Assembly: GCF_000703085.1 (NCBI RefSeq)
Contig: NZ_JNLL01000001.1
Span: forward strand, 1,116,001 to 1,180,000
Length of the DNA: 64,000 bases
Direction: 5' to 3'
Origin: Persephonella sp. KM09-Lau-8
GTDB taxonomy: Bacteria > Aquificota > Aquificia > Aquificales > Hydrogenothermaceae
Shown: piece by piece, positions 19,753 to 27,024 of the stretch
Layout: the number at the start of each line of letters is the position of its first letter
How positions within the stretch are numbered: the first letter of the stretch is position 1
The notes under the pieces: model-generated
Database searches by the model: none
Seen by the model: the letters and a program-made list of their open reading frames with translations, nothing else
What the model was told of the DNA's origin: nothing
Made by a program: the position numbers and the translations under genes

Positions 19753-22068
19753 TCTGCTTATCTTTACCCAGTCGGCTGCAATCTCAGCAGAAAAAGGCCT
19801 GAAACTTTACATATTAGGGTTATATGTAAATAACATATATCTCGGCGATTCTATTGTATATATTAAAAAAAAAGTTTGTATGTAAAACAGTCAGAACTTA
19901 AACGGATTGGCCTTACAAAAATACCTCCTAATGTTACTAAACTTATCAAAAAACAACCTTACGTATGTATCACATGCATAAAAGGAGTAGAAATTGATAT
20001 AAACTATAATCTTCTTACAGCTAATATAAAAGTGCCTCCTGAATACTTTTCCCAAAAAAAAGTAGAGATTAAAAGAAGAAAAATAACTCCTGTGGAAAGT
20101 AATGGATGGTTTATAGAATATGATTCTTTGTATTCTAAATATTCTACCCACAATGAATTAAGAACAAAACTCAATTTTAATTACTTTTTTTCAAATAAAA
20201 ACTTTTACACAGATTTTGTCCATTATTCCGATCAAAATGAAAATAAGCTTATACGTCTGGATTCTATGCTACGTATAGATGACGTGCCTAATATAAGAGA
20301 GATTGATATTGGAGATATATACCTCCAAAACTCTATATGGAATTACTATTTACGGGTTGGCGGTTTTAGAATAGGCACAAATTATGATCTGAGACCAGAT
20401 ATTATTACTTATCCTTTACCGGATTTTTCCGGAAAGATAGCCGTTCCATCATCGATTGATATTTTTGTGGAAAATGCTAAGGTCTTTTCCCAGAATCTAA
20501 AACCGGGTCCTTTTGAAATAAGAGATATTCCTGTAATAACTCCTGAAGGAAATATAAGAGTTGTTATAAGAGATGTATTAGGAAGAGAAAAAATTGTTGA
20601 AATTCCTTACGCAACAGATAGAAATCTGTTAAAAAAAGGCCTAAAAGATTACTTTTTTACAGCAGGATTCTTGAGAAAGGATTATTTAAACAAAAGTTTT
20701 GATTATTCTAAATTTGTCATTAACAGTGAATACAGAAAAGGGCTTACTGATAATCTGACTGGAGGTTTTAGCTTTTATCTTCAGGGATTAGATGGATTAA
20801 ATACAGGATTTGGAATTTATTACTTATTGGGCAAGTTTGGTTTAATATCTCCAAATCTTTCCTTTTCTTATGACAAAAAGAAATCCTCAACGGGTTTCCA
20901 GTATGGTATAACCTACTCTAAAAATCTCAGATTTTTGAGACTTAGACTTTCTGCAATAAAAAGTTCAGATAATTTCTTTATGCCTTCAAATGTTTATGGT
21001 CAACCGAAGGATTATTATAATGCTCTTGTTGGATTTAGACTATTTAAGTTTGGTTTTCTAAACTTTTCTTACATAAAAAGAACCTACTTTGATCATCCGG
21101 ATTCAACTAATATAAATGTTTCTTATTCTAAAAACTTATTCAAACGAATAAATGTATCACTATCGTACAACATGTATAAATCAGAAACAAATAATAAATC
21201 TTTCCGTTTTTCTATAAACATACCTATTGGGAAATCATATTACTCAAGCCTGAATTACCAAAAAAATGAAAATCAAACTAAATACTCGCTTAGCATTAAC
21301 CAACGATACAACCCATTTGATAAATTCTCTTTCAAAGGAAGGATAGAGAAAACACAGGAATATAACAATATTTATGTAGATTTAAGTTATAATGCCAAAT
21401 ATGCAACAGTATACTCTGAAATTTCTTATTCTTCAGGATTTGATAACTCTCTATCTTATAGAATAGGACTGCAGGGAAGTCTTGTCCGTTTAGGAGGTAA
21501 ATTTTTCCTCCGAAGAGCCGTTCAGGATAGCTTTGGCATAGTAAAAATAGAGCCACCTATTAAAAATGCAAAAGTGTTAGTCAATAACAGGTATGCTGGG
21601 AAAACAGATAAAGAAGGCACGTTATTCATCCCAACCTTTTATCCGTATTATCCAAATGAAGTATCAATAGACCCTTCAAGCCTTAATGTTAAAACATATA
21701 TTGATAAGAATGTTGTTACATTTGTGCCTTATAAAAATCATGGATATCTCATAAAATTCAAAGCAGAGCAGATGAATTCTGTTAGATTAAAAATAAAATT
21801 CCCTGATGGAACTTTTCCTGAACCTGGAACACATTTTTATGTAGACGGCAAAAAGGTGGGAATTATAGGTTATAAAGGCAAAGCATTCATTGAAAACATT
21901 TCAGTGGGAGAACATACAGCAACTATTGATTACGGTTATACAGGATGTAGTTTTAAAATAAAAATAACAAAAGATATTATAAAGAAAGTAGTTCCATATA
22001 TCGGGGAGTATATATGCAGGCCTATTAAGGAGGGAAAAAATGAAGATAGTAAAAATAATATTGATTAG
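19724..22068 (+). CDS. Outer-membrane fimbrial usher, frame-interrupted at an A9 tract
   Basis: FimD/PapC-type pore that assembles the pilus. ATG at 19724 gives a signal peptide (MAKRFLLIF... to about residue 22) and the start of the usher N-domain (LYILGLYVNNIYLGDSIVYI), but this frame meets TAA at 19883-19885. The rest (plug, beta-barrel, C-terminal domains) continues in the -1 frame to 22068. The switch point is nine consecutive As at 19865-19873; ten As, or a -1 slip there, would give an intact protein of about 781 aa reading IKKKSLYVKQSELKRIGL. No other disruption was seen. It could be phase variation, slippage decoding, or a sequencing error. Low GC. Confidence 0.85.
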
Positions 22069-22519
22069 TTTGTTAATATTAATAGAATCTTTTGCAAAAG
22101 AGCATAATTTCAATAATAGTGGAAGTTGTTATGCTCAGATAGAAGATATATCATTTGGAGTTTACAATCCTTTCGACCGCATAGTCAAAAGAACATATGC
22201 AACTTTAAGAGTTGTGTGTAACTCTAAGAATAATATATCTTTTACAGTTAAAGTGTTAGGTGGAAATAGTAGTAATCCAGCCAAAAGGTATCTTTATTCT
22301 GCATCTTCCGGTGGAAAACTTTATTACAACTTATTCTATAGAAACTGTATACTTGGAGATGGAACTCAAAACACTTGTGTAATTTCAGGAATGACAAGAT
22401 GTGGAAGGAAACATTTCAGTGAAAGAAGATTCTGTATAGTTGGCGTAATACCCCCTATGCAAAATGTTCCTGTAGCAGATGATTATCAGGATCATCTTAC
22501 TGTGATTATAGAGTATTAA
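22040..22519 (+). CDS. Spore-coat-U-domain protein, possible pilus tip subunit
   Basis: 159 aa with signal peptide (to about residue 19). The SCPU features ISFGVYNPFD, two early cysteines and the terminal VPVADDYQDHLTVIIEY are present, with four further cysteines in the second half (FYRNCILG, NTCVISGMTRC, RRFCIVG) not found in the other two pilins. Last gene of the operon, overlapping the usher C-terminus by 29 nt with AGGAGG upstream. Position and extra disulfides suggest a tip or adhesin role; inference. Confidence 0.8.
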   Translation: MKIVKIILISLLILIESFAKEHNFNNSGSCYAQIEDISFGVYNPFDRIVKRTYATLRVVCNSKNNISFTVKVLGGNSSNPAKRYLYSASSGGKLYYNLFYRNCILGDGTQNTCVISGMTRCGRKHFSERRFCIVGVIPPMQNVPVADDYQDHLTVIIEY

Positions 22520-23600: not shown

Positions 23601-24074
23601 GTGAAAAATATAGTATTAGGTTTAATTTTGGCAATATTTGTAATTACAGGAATATCAACTGCTAAAGATATTGAGAAACTCTATTTTTATGATTTAAATG
23701 GTAAAAAGGTCAGTGTGGCAAGTTTTAAAGGAAAACCTACTGTGCTTGTATTCTGGCAACTACACTGTCTGGGATGTGAAAGGGAACTTCCTGAGGTATC
23801 AGAACTGGCAAAGGAATATAAAGACAAAGTGAGATTTTATGCGGTTGTTATAAATACAAGGGACATACTGACAATTGAAGAGAAAAAAAGGGAGTGGGGA
23901 TTTGACCTACCGGTACTGATTTCTGACTACAAAACAATGGTTGCATTTAATATATTTGGTACGCCAACAACTATTGTTCTGGACAAAAACTTGAAAATAA
24001 AAGCCAGATTTATGGGTGCAGGTAAAGTAAAATTCTTAAAAAAAGTTTTAGATAGACTTACAAAAAGTAAATAA
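23601..24074 (+). CDS. Exported TlpA-like thioredoxin-fold protein
   Basis: 157 aa. GTG start at 23601 with GGAGG 6 nt upstream, giving a signal anchor (residues 2-19) then a thioredoxin fold with the redox motif CLGC (Cys56, Cys59) in VFWQLHCLGCERELPE and cis-Pro in GTPTTIV. Probably reduces periplasmic disulfides, for example in cytochrome c maturation, which the cbb3 operon in this window would need. Partner unknown. Confidence 0.85.
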   Translation: MKNIVLGLILAIFVITGISTAKDIEKLYFYDLNGKKVSVASFKGKPTVLVFWQLHCLGCERELPEVSELAKEYKDKVRFYAVVINTRDILTIEEKKREWGFDLPVLISDYKTMVAFNIFGTPTTIVLDKNLKIKARFMGAGKVKFLKKVLDRLTKSK

Positions 24075-24141
24075 ACAAAATTCAAAGCATGACATATATT
24101 TTCTATACAAAATTTTAAATCCCAATGAAAATAAAATTGGT

Positions 24142-24147
24142 TATAAT
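24142..24147 (+). promoter_or_regulatory. Consensus -10 element upstream of the receptor-channel gene
   Basis: TATAAT 26 bp before the GTG at 24173, in a 98-bp AT-rich gap. No matching -35 sequence at 16-18 bp spacing was seen, so this is a weak promoter call. It would give the gene its own transcript. Confidence 0.4.
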
Positions 24148-24172
24148 GTTTTAGATTTAATAATTTATAAAG

Positions 24173-26317
24173 GTGTTTATAAATAATAAAAGTGAAAATA
24201 TCAAAAAACCTGCAATACTATTATTAATATTTCTCATTTGTGTAAGTGTTTTTTCTTTTTTTATATGGAAATATAATCTAAATTCTGCAACATATAAAGG
24301 TCAAGATTACGTAGTTTTAGTTATAACCAATTATTCTTATAAAAATAAACCAAAAGGTTACAATTTAAGGAAAATAAATAAAAAAGCACAAAACAAAATT
24401 GAAAGATTCGTAAAACAAAACCTTAAAAATGTCAAAATAATCTGGATAGATTATCCAGAGGAAGCACGAAAAAAAAGTTCTCCAAAAGGTCAAAAACTAT
24501 ATAAGCAATTTCGGAAAAAACTCCAAACTATTATTAAAAAATATAAATCCAGACTTATACTTGTGGTCGATGGCACAATTTCAAAAACAGCACAGGATAC
24601 TCTTGATATTATTCCTCCTGAAATTCCAGTTTGGACAGGGGCTTCAAGTAAAGACGCCAACTCAAAATTTAAAGGCAAGGAGATATTCTCTACAGCTGCA
24701 TCTCCTTTTTACTCAAAAGCTTATTTCATACTTAAAGCTATAGAACTTTTAAATCTCAAAGGGATTGTTTTTATCTTAAGTGATCAACAAAAAGATTCTC
24801 CCTATTCTTATTCAATTAAAGAAGCCCTTGAAAAAAGTAATGATATAAAAAATCATAAGATATCTTTAATAACTGTAAAGAAAAGCTCTTTTGAAAAAGA
24901 GGAAAAATTCATATTACAAAATAATAATCTTAAAAATTACTTATGGGTTCTCGGAATCGGAGATTCTTCTAATGCAATGTATGAATTCTATAAAAATTAT
25001 TTAGAGGGAAGGAAGTTAAATGTAATGTTTATTTATTTTAGCTCCTCATTATACGACAAAGAATTTGCAAATGAAGACAATATATTTTTTATAAGTTCTC
25101 ATTTAAACAGAAAAAATCCTTTTGATTATTCATATCTTGGGGGAAAAGTTCTTTCTCTTTGTAACTATAATATCAAGTGTGTTCATTCTTATGACTATAA
25201 TTGGAGAAATTTTTTCAATAGAATTTCAATTATTTTGGATAAAAAAATCTCCTCATTAATTAAAAGTCAAAAAAGTGTCACAGAAATAAGAACAGTTATA
25301 CGTAAAAAAATCAAAAAAAGTTCACTATACCATCCTTTTGTAGATAAAATAACCCAAGAAATTTATGTTGCTTATCCATACAATACTAAAAAAGGATTAA
25401 CTATTTATTATAATGGCATCTATCCTTGGCTTGTAAATAGATATTTAATAAAGGTAAAAAATAATAAAAGAGAATTATTTGAAAAACAAGTGGTATGTCT
25501 TTATGTGGATCCCAGTAACAGATACGAATGTAATAAAGTAGTCCCTGTAGTGTATATAGAACCTTTCATAAGAAAGATAAATATACTTTCTCTCTCAACA
25601 GATAAAGCTGTTATAGAGATGTTAGTCAAGCTAAGATATTTAAAAACTTCAAATAACAATTTTGAAATTGGTAAAAACATTGACATAAGCACATCTGTTG
25701 AATTCGTAGGAGAACGTTCTATCTCACAGATTTCTGCAAGGGAATATAAAGATTATATAGAAAAGCTCTATGACGTTAGGTTAATTGCTCCAGTTAGAGG
25801 CAATTTATTTTCTTTTCCTTTTAATAAAGCATGGATTGATATTGAATTTTTCCCAAAAAATTTTAAGGAAAATCCCTTTTTAATTCAGATATTATCTTCT
25901 TACGAACCTTTTGAAAGTCAAAATATATCTTCAAATTGGAAAATTACCAATTGGTTTTCCTCTTCTTCCAAAAAAGTTTTAATTTCTGAAAATATTCCCT
26001 ATATAGGGTATAGATATTACTTTTCCATTCAATTAGAGAGGTTAAATCCTTATCAAATTTTATTTAAATATTTTGCTCCTGCACTAATTATTACATTGGT
26101 AGGGTTAATTGCTGCTTATTACATTATAAGATACGGTAGAAGTCATATAGATTTCATTGATATCTTAAATGGGGTTATTCTTGGAATAATTTCTATTTAT
26201 TTCATATTTAGTTTATTGGTTTCAATAAGTAATCTAATTTTCATGGATGTTGTATTTTTTATACTTGTTCTCTTTATGAGTATCATATTGGTATATGCGA
26301 TTTTCAGATTAAAATAA
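24173..26317 (+). CDS. Periplasmic-binding domain fused to a pentameric ligand-gated channel-like domain
   Basis: 714 aa. Residues 13-32 form a signal anchor. Residues about 45-345 look like a type 1 periplasmic-binding fold (alternating strands and helices, LNLKGIVFILSDQQKDSPYS, LWVLGIGDSSNA). Residues about 455-625 resemble the extracellular beta-sandwich of Cys-loop/GLIC-type channels, with PFNKAWIDIEFFP and NWKITNWFSS at the expected places. Then come helices at 630-652 (directly after RYYFSIQLERLNPYQ, as M1 is in channels), 662-684 and 690-711. A fourth helix is missing. GTG start is uncertain. Fusions of these two modules are known in prokaryotes. Assignment rests on pattern recognition. 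Very AT-rich, monocistronic. Confidence 0.6.
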   Translation: MFINNKSENIKKPAILLLIFLICVSVFSFFIWKYNLNSATYKGQDYVVLVITNYSYKNKPKGYNLRKINKKAQNKIERFVKQNLKNVKIIWIDYPEEARKKSSPKGQKLYKQFRKKLQTIIKKYKSRLILVVDGTISKTAQDTLDIIPPEIPVWTGASSKDANSKFKGKEIFSTAASPFYSKAYFILKAIELLNLKGIVFILSDQQKDSPYSYSIKEALEKSNDIKNHKISLITVKKSSFEKEEKFILQNNNLKNYLWVLGIGDSSNAMYEFYKNYLEGRKLNVMFIYFSSSLYDKEFANEDNIFFISSHLNRKNPFDYSYLGGKVLSLCNYNIKCVHSYDYNWRNFFNRISIILDKKISSLIKSQKSVTEIRTVIRKKIKKSSLYHPFVDKITQEIYVAYPYNTKKGLTIYYNGIYPWLVNRYLIKVKNNKRELFEKQVVCLYVDPSNRYECNKVVPVVYIEPFIRKINILSLSTDKAVIEMLVKLRYLKTSNNNFEIGKNIDISTSVEFVGERSISQISAREYKDYIEKLYDVRLIAPVRGNLFSFPFNKAWIDIEFFPKNFKENPFLIQILSSYEPFESQNISSNWKITNWFSSSSKKVLISENIPYIGYRYYFSIQLERLNPYQILFKYFAPALIITLVGLIAAYYIIRYGRSHIDFIDILNGVILGIISIYFIFSLLVSISNLIFMDVVFFILVLFMSIILVYAIFRLK

Positions 26318-26340
26318 AAATAAACTAACTATCCATATTT

Positions 26341-27024
26341 TTAAGCTGAAAGAATTGATTTAAGTATATAAAGTCCGTCTTCGCTGCCTAAAATACTTTC
26401 TGATGCCCTTTCAGGGTGAGGCATAAGCCCGAAAACATTTTTGTTTTTATTGCATATACCGGCTATATTTGAAAGTGAGCCGTTTGGATTTGCATCTTCA
26501 GTTATATTTCCAAATTCATCACAATATCTGAGGATAATCTGGTCATTATCTTCCATCTCTTTTAATGTATTTTCATCAACGAAATAATTTCCATCATGAT
26601 GGGCTATAGGTATTTTTAATATCTGTCCATCTTCACACTGGTTTGTAAATGGAGTGTTGCTATTTTCAACCCTGAGATATTGTGGTTTACACACAAATTT
26701 TCCATGTATATTTGGCATCAAAGCTCCAGGAAGTAGATGTGCTTCTGTTAAGATTTGAAAGCCATTACATATTCCTATAACAAGTCCACCTTTATCAGCA
26801 AACTCTTTAACGGCAGCAGTTAAAGGTGTGTGAGCTGCCAGTGTTCCAGGTCTAAGATAATCCCCAAAAGAAAATCCACCAGGGAGAATAATACAGTCAT
26901 AGCCTTCTATATCGGTCTGTCTGTAATCTATAAAATCAACCTCTTCCTTAAGGACATCTCGGATAACCCTGTATGTATCATAATCACAGTTTGAACCTGG
27001 ATAAACAGCAACACCGAATTTCAA
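26341..27024 (-). CDS. purQ: Phosphoribosylformylglycinamidine synthase, glutaminase subunit
   Basis: Supplies ammonia to PurL for the fourth step of purine synthesis. Class I glutamine amidotransferase: nucleophile Cys in IGICNGFQIL, and the His/Glu pair in MPHPERASE. N-terminal VAVYPGSNCDYDT is PurQ-specific. 227 aa, normal. Two bases after purS; purL is not in the window. Confidence 0.97.
   Translation of the reverse strand: MKFGVAVYPGSNCDYDTYRVIRDVLKEEVDFIDYRQTDIEGYDCIILPGGFSFGDYLRPGTLAAHTPLTAAVKEFADKGGLVIGICNGFQILTEAHLLPGALMPNIHGKFVCKPQYLRVENSNTPFTNQCEDGQILKIPIAHHDGNYFVDENTLKEMEDNDQIILRYCDEFGNITEDANPNGSLSNIAGICNKNKNVFGLMPHPERASESILGSEDGLYILKSILSA

Follow-up and report, generated by a model that had tools for sequence, protein, structure and literature searches.

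A putative receptor gene of Persephonella encoding a periplasmic domain and a pLGIC-like body that ends after three membrane helices

A 64,000-nucleotide stretch of the genome of Persephonella sp. KM09-Lau-8, a thermophilic vent bacterium, (the window) contains a gene for a protein whose C-terminal body is supported, by structural modelling and by sequence comparison, as a member of the pentameric ligand-gated ion channel (pLGIC) fold and a very distant cousin of the animal neurotransmitter-gated channels. The protein and its relatives in two phyla end after the third membrane helix. Fusions of type 1 periplasmic-binding (PBP-I) domains to pLGICs have been known since 2004; the novelty is a conserved, naturally M4-less lineage, and no description of a natural M4-less pLGIC was found in the open-access literature. 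The best explanation, which we consider reasonably likely, is a receptor that faces the periplasm and is based on a divergent three-helix pLGIC module with a ligand-driven pore.

The gene, its relatives and its genomic setting

The open reading frame was uninterrupted over 714 codons from a GTG start, the exact position of which is slightly uncertain because an AAAGG Shine-Dalgarno-like run abuts the GTG. The product has a hydrophobic segment near its N-terminus (residues 8-36), from which some 590 residues outside the cytoplasm lead to three C-terminal helices (Table 1). The gene stood alone, 98 bp downstream of a same-strand tlpA-like thioredoxin gene (ending at 24074) and convergent with the next gene, purQ (26341-27024). 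At 26.3%, its GC content lay below that of the window (34.5%) and of the genes around it (31-37%); the lone position and the base composition both bore out the initial annotation, which had described a single-gene, AT-rich unit. Elsewhere in the window (19876-22519, + strand) lay a pair of surface-fibre genes of the chaperone-usher-like kind, the first for an outer-membrane usher (PF00577, E 5e-46) and the second for an SCPU subunit of the spore-coat-U type (PF05229, E 4e-12); the pair was also present in the Persephonella genome G006.

Table 1. Features of the receptor gene and its product, with positions in the window
Feature	Position	Strand	Basis
Gene for 714-aa M4-less pLGIC-like receptor	24173..26317	+	Open reading frame and translation; full-length relatives in G006, G013, G136 and G187
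Inserted stretch, missing from five other Persephonella genomes, where tlpA and purQ are neighbours	24072..26334		BLAST against G006, G004, G009, G005 and G011
N-terminal hydrophobic anchor (residues 8-36)	24194..24280	+	Hydropathy and sequences; cleavage state by eye
Alpha/beta domain on the periplasmic side (residues 45-380), probably two-lobed and PBP-I-like	24305..25312	+	Element order in AlphaFold2 model
pLGIC-like beta-sandwich (about residues 456-625)	25538..26047	+	AlphaFold2 model of residues 383-714; Foldseek matches all pLGICs
Pro-loop F-P-F-N (residues 548-551); FPFD or FPYD in relatives	25814..25825	+	Alignment; table 1 of Jaiteh 2016
Invariant Trp589, equivalent of beta-9 core Trp (GLIC W160)	25937..25939	+	Alignment
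Invariant pre-M1 Arg623 (GLIC R192)	26039..26041	+	Alignment
Helix M1 (residues 627-654) with invariant Pro636	26051..26134	+	AlphaFold2; alignment
Helix M2, predicted pore-lining (residues 658-682); conservation peak 670-689	26144..26218	+	AlphaFold2, conservation, polarity
Helix M3 (residues 685-713), after loop with invariant Asp692; protein ends, no M4	26225..26314	+	AlphaFold2; no downstream transmembrane segment

Among 136 genomes of the phylum to which the window belongs, 4 carried the gene, the window genome in one copy; so did 2 of 399 sampled genomes from the order of G136, a Campylobacterales MAG. A genome of the same genus (G001) carried a 98% identical copy that was interrupted by a contig end and kept the same C-terminal end. 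A 667-aa protein about 27-30% identical to the window protein was encoded in two further Persephonella genomes (G006 and the MAG G013), and relatives of 656 aa and 660 aa were encoded at locus L022 of G136 and at L025 of G187, whose family is also that of G136. The comparison drew on five full-length sequences and spanned two phyla (L004 and L003/L023 being nearly identical); full-length copies were 24-70% identical. With full-length relatives in two phyla, the reading frame is not a chance one. Matches to residues 424-504 in many Persephonella genomes were traced to a DEAD-box helicase, and those to residues 644-705 in G006 and G013 to a 66-aa membrane protein; both were discarded as chance.

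Nothing was found by BLAST between tlpA and purQ in five other Persephonella genomes, and the flanks of this site in G006 were 89-96% identical in DNA to those of the window. Either the window carries a 2.26-kb single-gene insertion, or the other Persephonella would share a clean loss. In G006 a divergent receptor copy was located between queC and a rhodanese gene, and no conserved operon was found around the receptor gene in Persephonella. In its C-terminal part the window protein shared 35-36% identity with the proteins from Campylobacterales and 27.5% with that of its congener; exchange between phyla is therefore suggested, and the gene was apparently acquired horizontally. Plasmids and viral contigs yielded no relatives of the receptor; a GLIC query of the plasmids also yielded none, so the plasmid collection is uninformative in this respect.

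The channel-like body and the missing helix

Residues 383-714 were modelled with AlphaFold2 from three sequences, giving, at modest confidence (pLDDT 62.8, TM-score about 0.5), a beta-sandwich followed by helices at fragment positions 245-272, 276-300 and 303-331. When this model was compared with the PDB using Foldseek, 1108 matches were obtained at E<=0.001, the top 50 of which were all pLGICs (E 1.1e-10 to 1.4e-9, 240-300 columns). The full-length model, although poor (pLDDT 46.5), again matched only pLGICs, DeCLIC (9fth and 9eva) among them. Profile alignment with hhalign against GLIC and ELIC, the sequences of which were 100% identical to the PDB chains, gave E 0.0012 over 151 columns with FPFN placed on FPFD and M1 on M1, whereas reversed-sequence and wrong-domain controls gave E 0.24-0.55. 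No significant match to the window protein was found in Pfam (Neur_chan_LBD and Neur_chan_memb included), NCBIfam or PDB sequences, and PDB sequence searches with the window protein, its relatives and three alignments returned nothing credible. The relative in G136 had a weak, sub-threshold match to PF02931 (16 bits, E 0.0059 in a search of one genome), which covered model positions 127-215 of 216 and stopped where TM1 begins.

Seven positions are conserved across 561 pLGICs (Jaiteh 2016, PMC4795631). F548, P549, W589, R623 and P636 were invariant in all five members, P549 being the Pro-loop proline. At the acidic position of the [F/Y]PxD motif, where 93% of pLGICs have D and 3% have E (Jaiteh 2016, PMC4795631), four members had D and the window protein had N551, so that six of the seven hallmarks were present in four members and, strictly counted, five in the window protein (N for D). 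The seventh, a proline in the M2-M3 loop, was absent from all five members in the alignment; it is found in 88% of pLGICs and is not absolute (Jaiteh 2016, PMC4795631). Spacing between the hallmarks was 39-40 residues from Pro to Trp (40-41 in GLIC and ELIC), 34-46 from Trp to Arg (32-38) and 13 from Arg to Pro (12), the Trp of the window protein being W589 as placed by the alignment. The same pattern occurred in 172 of 50,000 shuffles of the window C-terminus (0.34%), and in 12 of 50,000 shuffles of the L022 C-terminus (0.02%). Of the 57 stop-to-stop frames in the window that span 150 aa or more, the receptor frame was the only one to show it; the landmark pattern exceeds chance.

The initial annotation had read this region as a pLGIC-like body ending after three helices, on the landmarks PFN, NWKI and LER, which were located at residues 549-551, 588-591 and 621-623. 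That reading was supported by the Foldseek matches, the hallmark residues, the hhalign register, the weak PF02931 match and the five shared ends. As to the checks proposed with it, a channel-family profile match in the C-terminal third was obtained in sub-threshold form from a relative and not from the window protein, and the predicted structure had the expected beta-sandwich and three helices, with pLGICs alone in the Foldseek top 50. An unrelated three-helix membrane sensor that merely resembles a pLGIC would explain why no curated family matches, and low-complexity helices can produce false similarity; this origin is nevertheless very improbable: the structural matches, over 240-300 columns, are to pLGICs without exception, the hallmark residues stand at the distances usual in the family, and the profile alignment, which was run beside negative controls, falls into the same register.

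By hydropathy, hydrophobic C-terminal segments covered residues 627-655 and 657-714, and all five proteins ended 0-9 residues past the third helix. The missing helix is identified as M4 because the beta-sandwich runs straight into a helix carrying the conserved Arg and Pro, that is, M1. A separate downstream gene or a frameshift encoding M4 was sought at the five loci, and no transmembrane segment was found before the next gene in any frame. The only strong transmembrane segments farther downstream were rejected as M4, since they belonged to a DUF218 gene at L025 and to the signal peptide of the rhodanese gene at L004. A four-helix membrane core is stereotypic of pLGICs (Tasneem 2004, PMC549065) and is the pLGIC build (Jaiteh 2016, PMC4795631); with three helices in all five members, the family is therefore described as a divergent three-helix lineage related to pLGICs and not as a canonical pLGIC.

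A decayed or truncated pLGIC gene that recently lost its M4-coding end would be in keeping with the AT-rich composition (26.3% GC) and the lineage-specific insertion. This account is hardly credible, and the conserved C-terminal ends largely refute it: in two phyla, full-length copies with 24-70% identity stop at the same point, as does that in G001, the frame is intact over 714 codons, and no M4 lies downstream in any frame.

The most conserved 20-residue stretch of the protein was 670-689, comprising M2 and its end, with an identity of 0.73 compared with a mean of 0.24. Such conservation fits a functional helix; it would be expected of a pore helix and is not diagnostic of one. M2 was unusually hydrophobic, with 4 polar residues in 22 compared with 8-9 in ELIC and GLIC, and had no obvious basic 0' residue. 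Conduction is uncertain because of these two features and the missing M2-M3 proline.

The N-terminal region and the Campylobacterales partner gene

The N-terminal segment of the Persephonella proteins had a long hydrophobic core and appeared uncleaved (residues 8-36 in the window protein, 4-31 in L004). The Campylobacterales N-termini, judged by eye, were short and signal-peptide-like, ending VYA-DE or IYA-NE. The initial annotation had the anchor add an extra membrane pass, which fits the Persephonella copies; in those of Campylobacterales the segment looks like a cleavable signal peptide. Since these M4-less Campylobacterales copies have signal-peptide-like starts, loss of M4 would be independent of the anchor. 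The uncleaved Persephonella anchor could instead replace M4 by packing on M1 and M3, producing a rearranged four-helix subunit; its long hydrophobic core and its direction, inside to outside as in M4 (topology inferred from charges), would suit that role. Such a replacement is improbable, as the anchor is poorly conserved (0.19) and the Campylobacterales homologues also do without M4 while beginning with short signal-peptide-like segments.

Beyond the anchor, alternating beta and alpha elements were present at residues 46-173 of the full-length AlphaFold2 model, in which confidence was low beyond residue 155 and pLDDT was <50 over 170-435. Searches of the N-terminal domain against Pfam, PDB and PF04392 gave no significant match. 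Its best Pfam match, with the domain taken alone (24302-25312 in the window), was DUF7447 (PF24239; E 4.6e-4), which was under the cut-off and was not seen in the relatives. ABC_sub_bind (PF04392) was rejected as the identity of the domain, hhalign having aligned 34 columns only (E 0.016) with no in-gene match in the relatives' genomes. From its element order the domain is quite probably PBP-I-like. The type 1 periplasmic-binding domain put forward in the initial annotation is thus plausible from the partial alpha/beta lobe in the model, whereas no sequence test for it reached significance; the channel body and the missing M4 are more solid than the PBP-I label.

In both Campylobacterales loci the receptor gene started 16 bp inside the end of a second gene. 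The secreted products of these partner genes (258-279 aa) were 60% identical to each other and gave in-register matches to NMT1_3 (E 1.7e-4) and to TRAP_TAXI (E 0.0064), both below the curated cut-offs; these weak matches suggest a TAXI-like periplasmic protein of the PBP-II type. No TRAP transporter genes were found beside the partner, and no TAXI partner was found anywhere in the Persephonella genomes. Operonic PBP-II genes have been reported beside some bacterial pLGICs, and a role in chemoreception was suggested (Tasneem 2004, PMC549065).

In G136, genes for an MCP signalling protein and a CheW-domain protein (L022:737-3992) lay directly upstream of the TAXI-like/receptor pair, a neighbourhood not kept in G187, and a small TerB-like protein was encoded directly downstream of the receptor gene (L022:6950-7294). 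In G187, a small protein judged by eye to be TerB-like was encoded about 2 kb from the receptor gene on the opposite strand (L026:11021-11371), and the TAXI-like gene was adjoined by a gene (L026:4647-6020, - strand) for a protein made up of repeats that are some 24 residues long and nearly identical (DNSLKKDKDVVLAAVKNNGDALQYA).

Proposed mechanism and comparison with known systems

In the favoured receptor, an N-terminal membrane anchor would be followed by a periplasmic sensor domain of two lobes, then by the pLGIC beta-sandwich and finally by helices M1, M2 and M3 only. We infer that the subunits most likely assemble as a ring, probably a pentamer, and that ligand binding in the sensor domain would rearrange the beta-sandwich; in Campylobacterales the ligand would perhaps be delivered through contact with the co-encoded TAXI-like binding protein. 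The junction of Pro-loop and pre-M1 Arg would pass the change to M2, so that a narrow hydrophobic pore conducting ions opens or closes. With M4 lost, M1 and M3 alone would close the membrane-facing surface. The inorganic or vent-specific ligand put forward in the initial annotation is a guess. For the fuller proposition, that a pLGIC-derived lineage spread horizontally between vent-associated Aquificota and Campylobacterota and forms functional ligand-gated pores from M1-M3 alone, the chances are put slightly below even.

The main rival, which we regard as rather unlikely, is a non-conducting receptor, in which a pLGIC-derived scaffold without M4 and without pore polarity senses ligands and signals via protein contacts. 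The hydrophobic M2, the absence of the M2-M3 proline from all members, the lack of M4 and the MCP and CheW genes just upstream in the G136 locus are in its favour. However, the protein has no cytoplasmic output domain, its C-terminus lying within a few residues of M3; M2 is its most conserved stretch, as expected of a pore helix though not diagnostic; and G187 does not share the MCP neighbourhood.

M4 is described as having an important part in lipid sensing and in the assembly of pLGICs (PMC9116227); how well its loss is tolerated varies greatly from receptor to receptor (PMC9260303). A lineage always without M4 is a natural test of the role of this helix and of the smallest helix set for a ligand-gated pore; functional three-helix pores would show that nature can dispense with M4. 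For structural studies, a thermophile's homologue may also offer a stable protein. The family further shows an arrangement predicted in 2004, in which a channel-like module would receive its input from a periplasmic sensor domain and from a binding protein encoded beside it; no characterised example was found.

The closest described architecture is that of the ART-LGICs, bacterial pLGICs from Magnetospirillum and Bradyrhizobium that are fused to PBP-I domains (Tasneem 2004, PMC549065) and confirm that, as had been noted at the outset, such fusions were already described. The receptor resembles them in its signal or anchor segment, putative N-terminal periplasmic-binding-like domain, pLGIC ligand-binding domain and C-terminal membrane helices. 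The ART-LGICs have a four-helix core and were found by sequence profiles, whereas the present family has M1-M3 only, lacks the M2-M3 proline and escapes profiles; with three helices and a putative PBP-I identity, it stands outside the 2004 fusion class of PBP-I plus a four-helix core. As in some bacterial pLGICs, the Campylobacterales relatives share an operon with a gene for a stand-alone PBP-II-type (TAXI-like) protein. Compared with TAXI/NMT1-like proteins, this partner matches in register but below the cut-offs, is without TRAP genes and is absent from Persephonella. DeCLIC of Desulfofustis (PMC9897478, PMC12664993) likewise carries a large periplasmic N-terminal domain on a pLGIC, but that domain comprises two jelly-roll lobes, not an alpha/beta fold, and the channel has four helices. 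With GLIC and ELIC, to which it is about 15% identical pairwise where the sequences align, the receptor shares a Cys-less Pro-loop, the beta-9 Trp, the pre-M1 Arg and the M1 Pro at near-identical spacing, and the lack of a large intracellular domain; GLIC and ELIC differ in that both possess M4, the M2-M3 proline and an M2 with a polar face, and neither has an N-terminal sensor domain.
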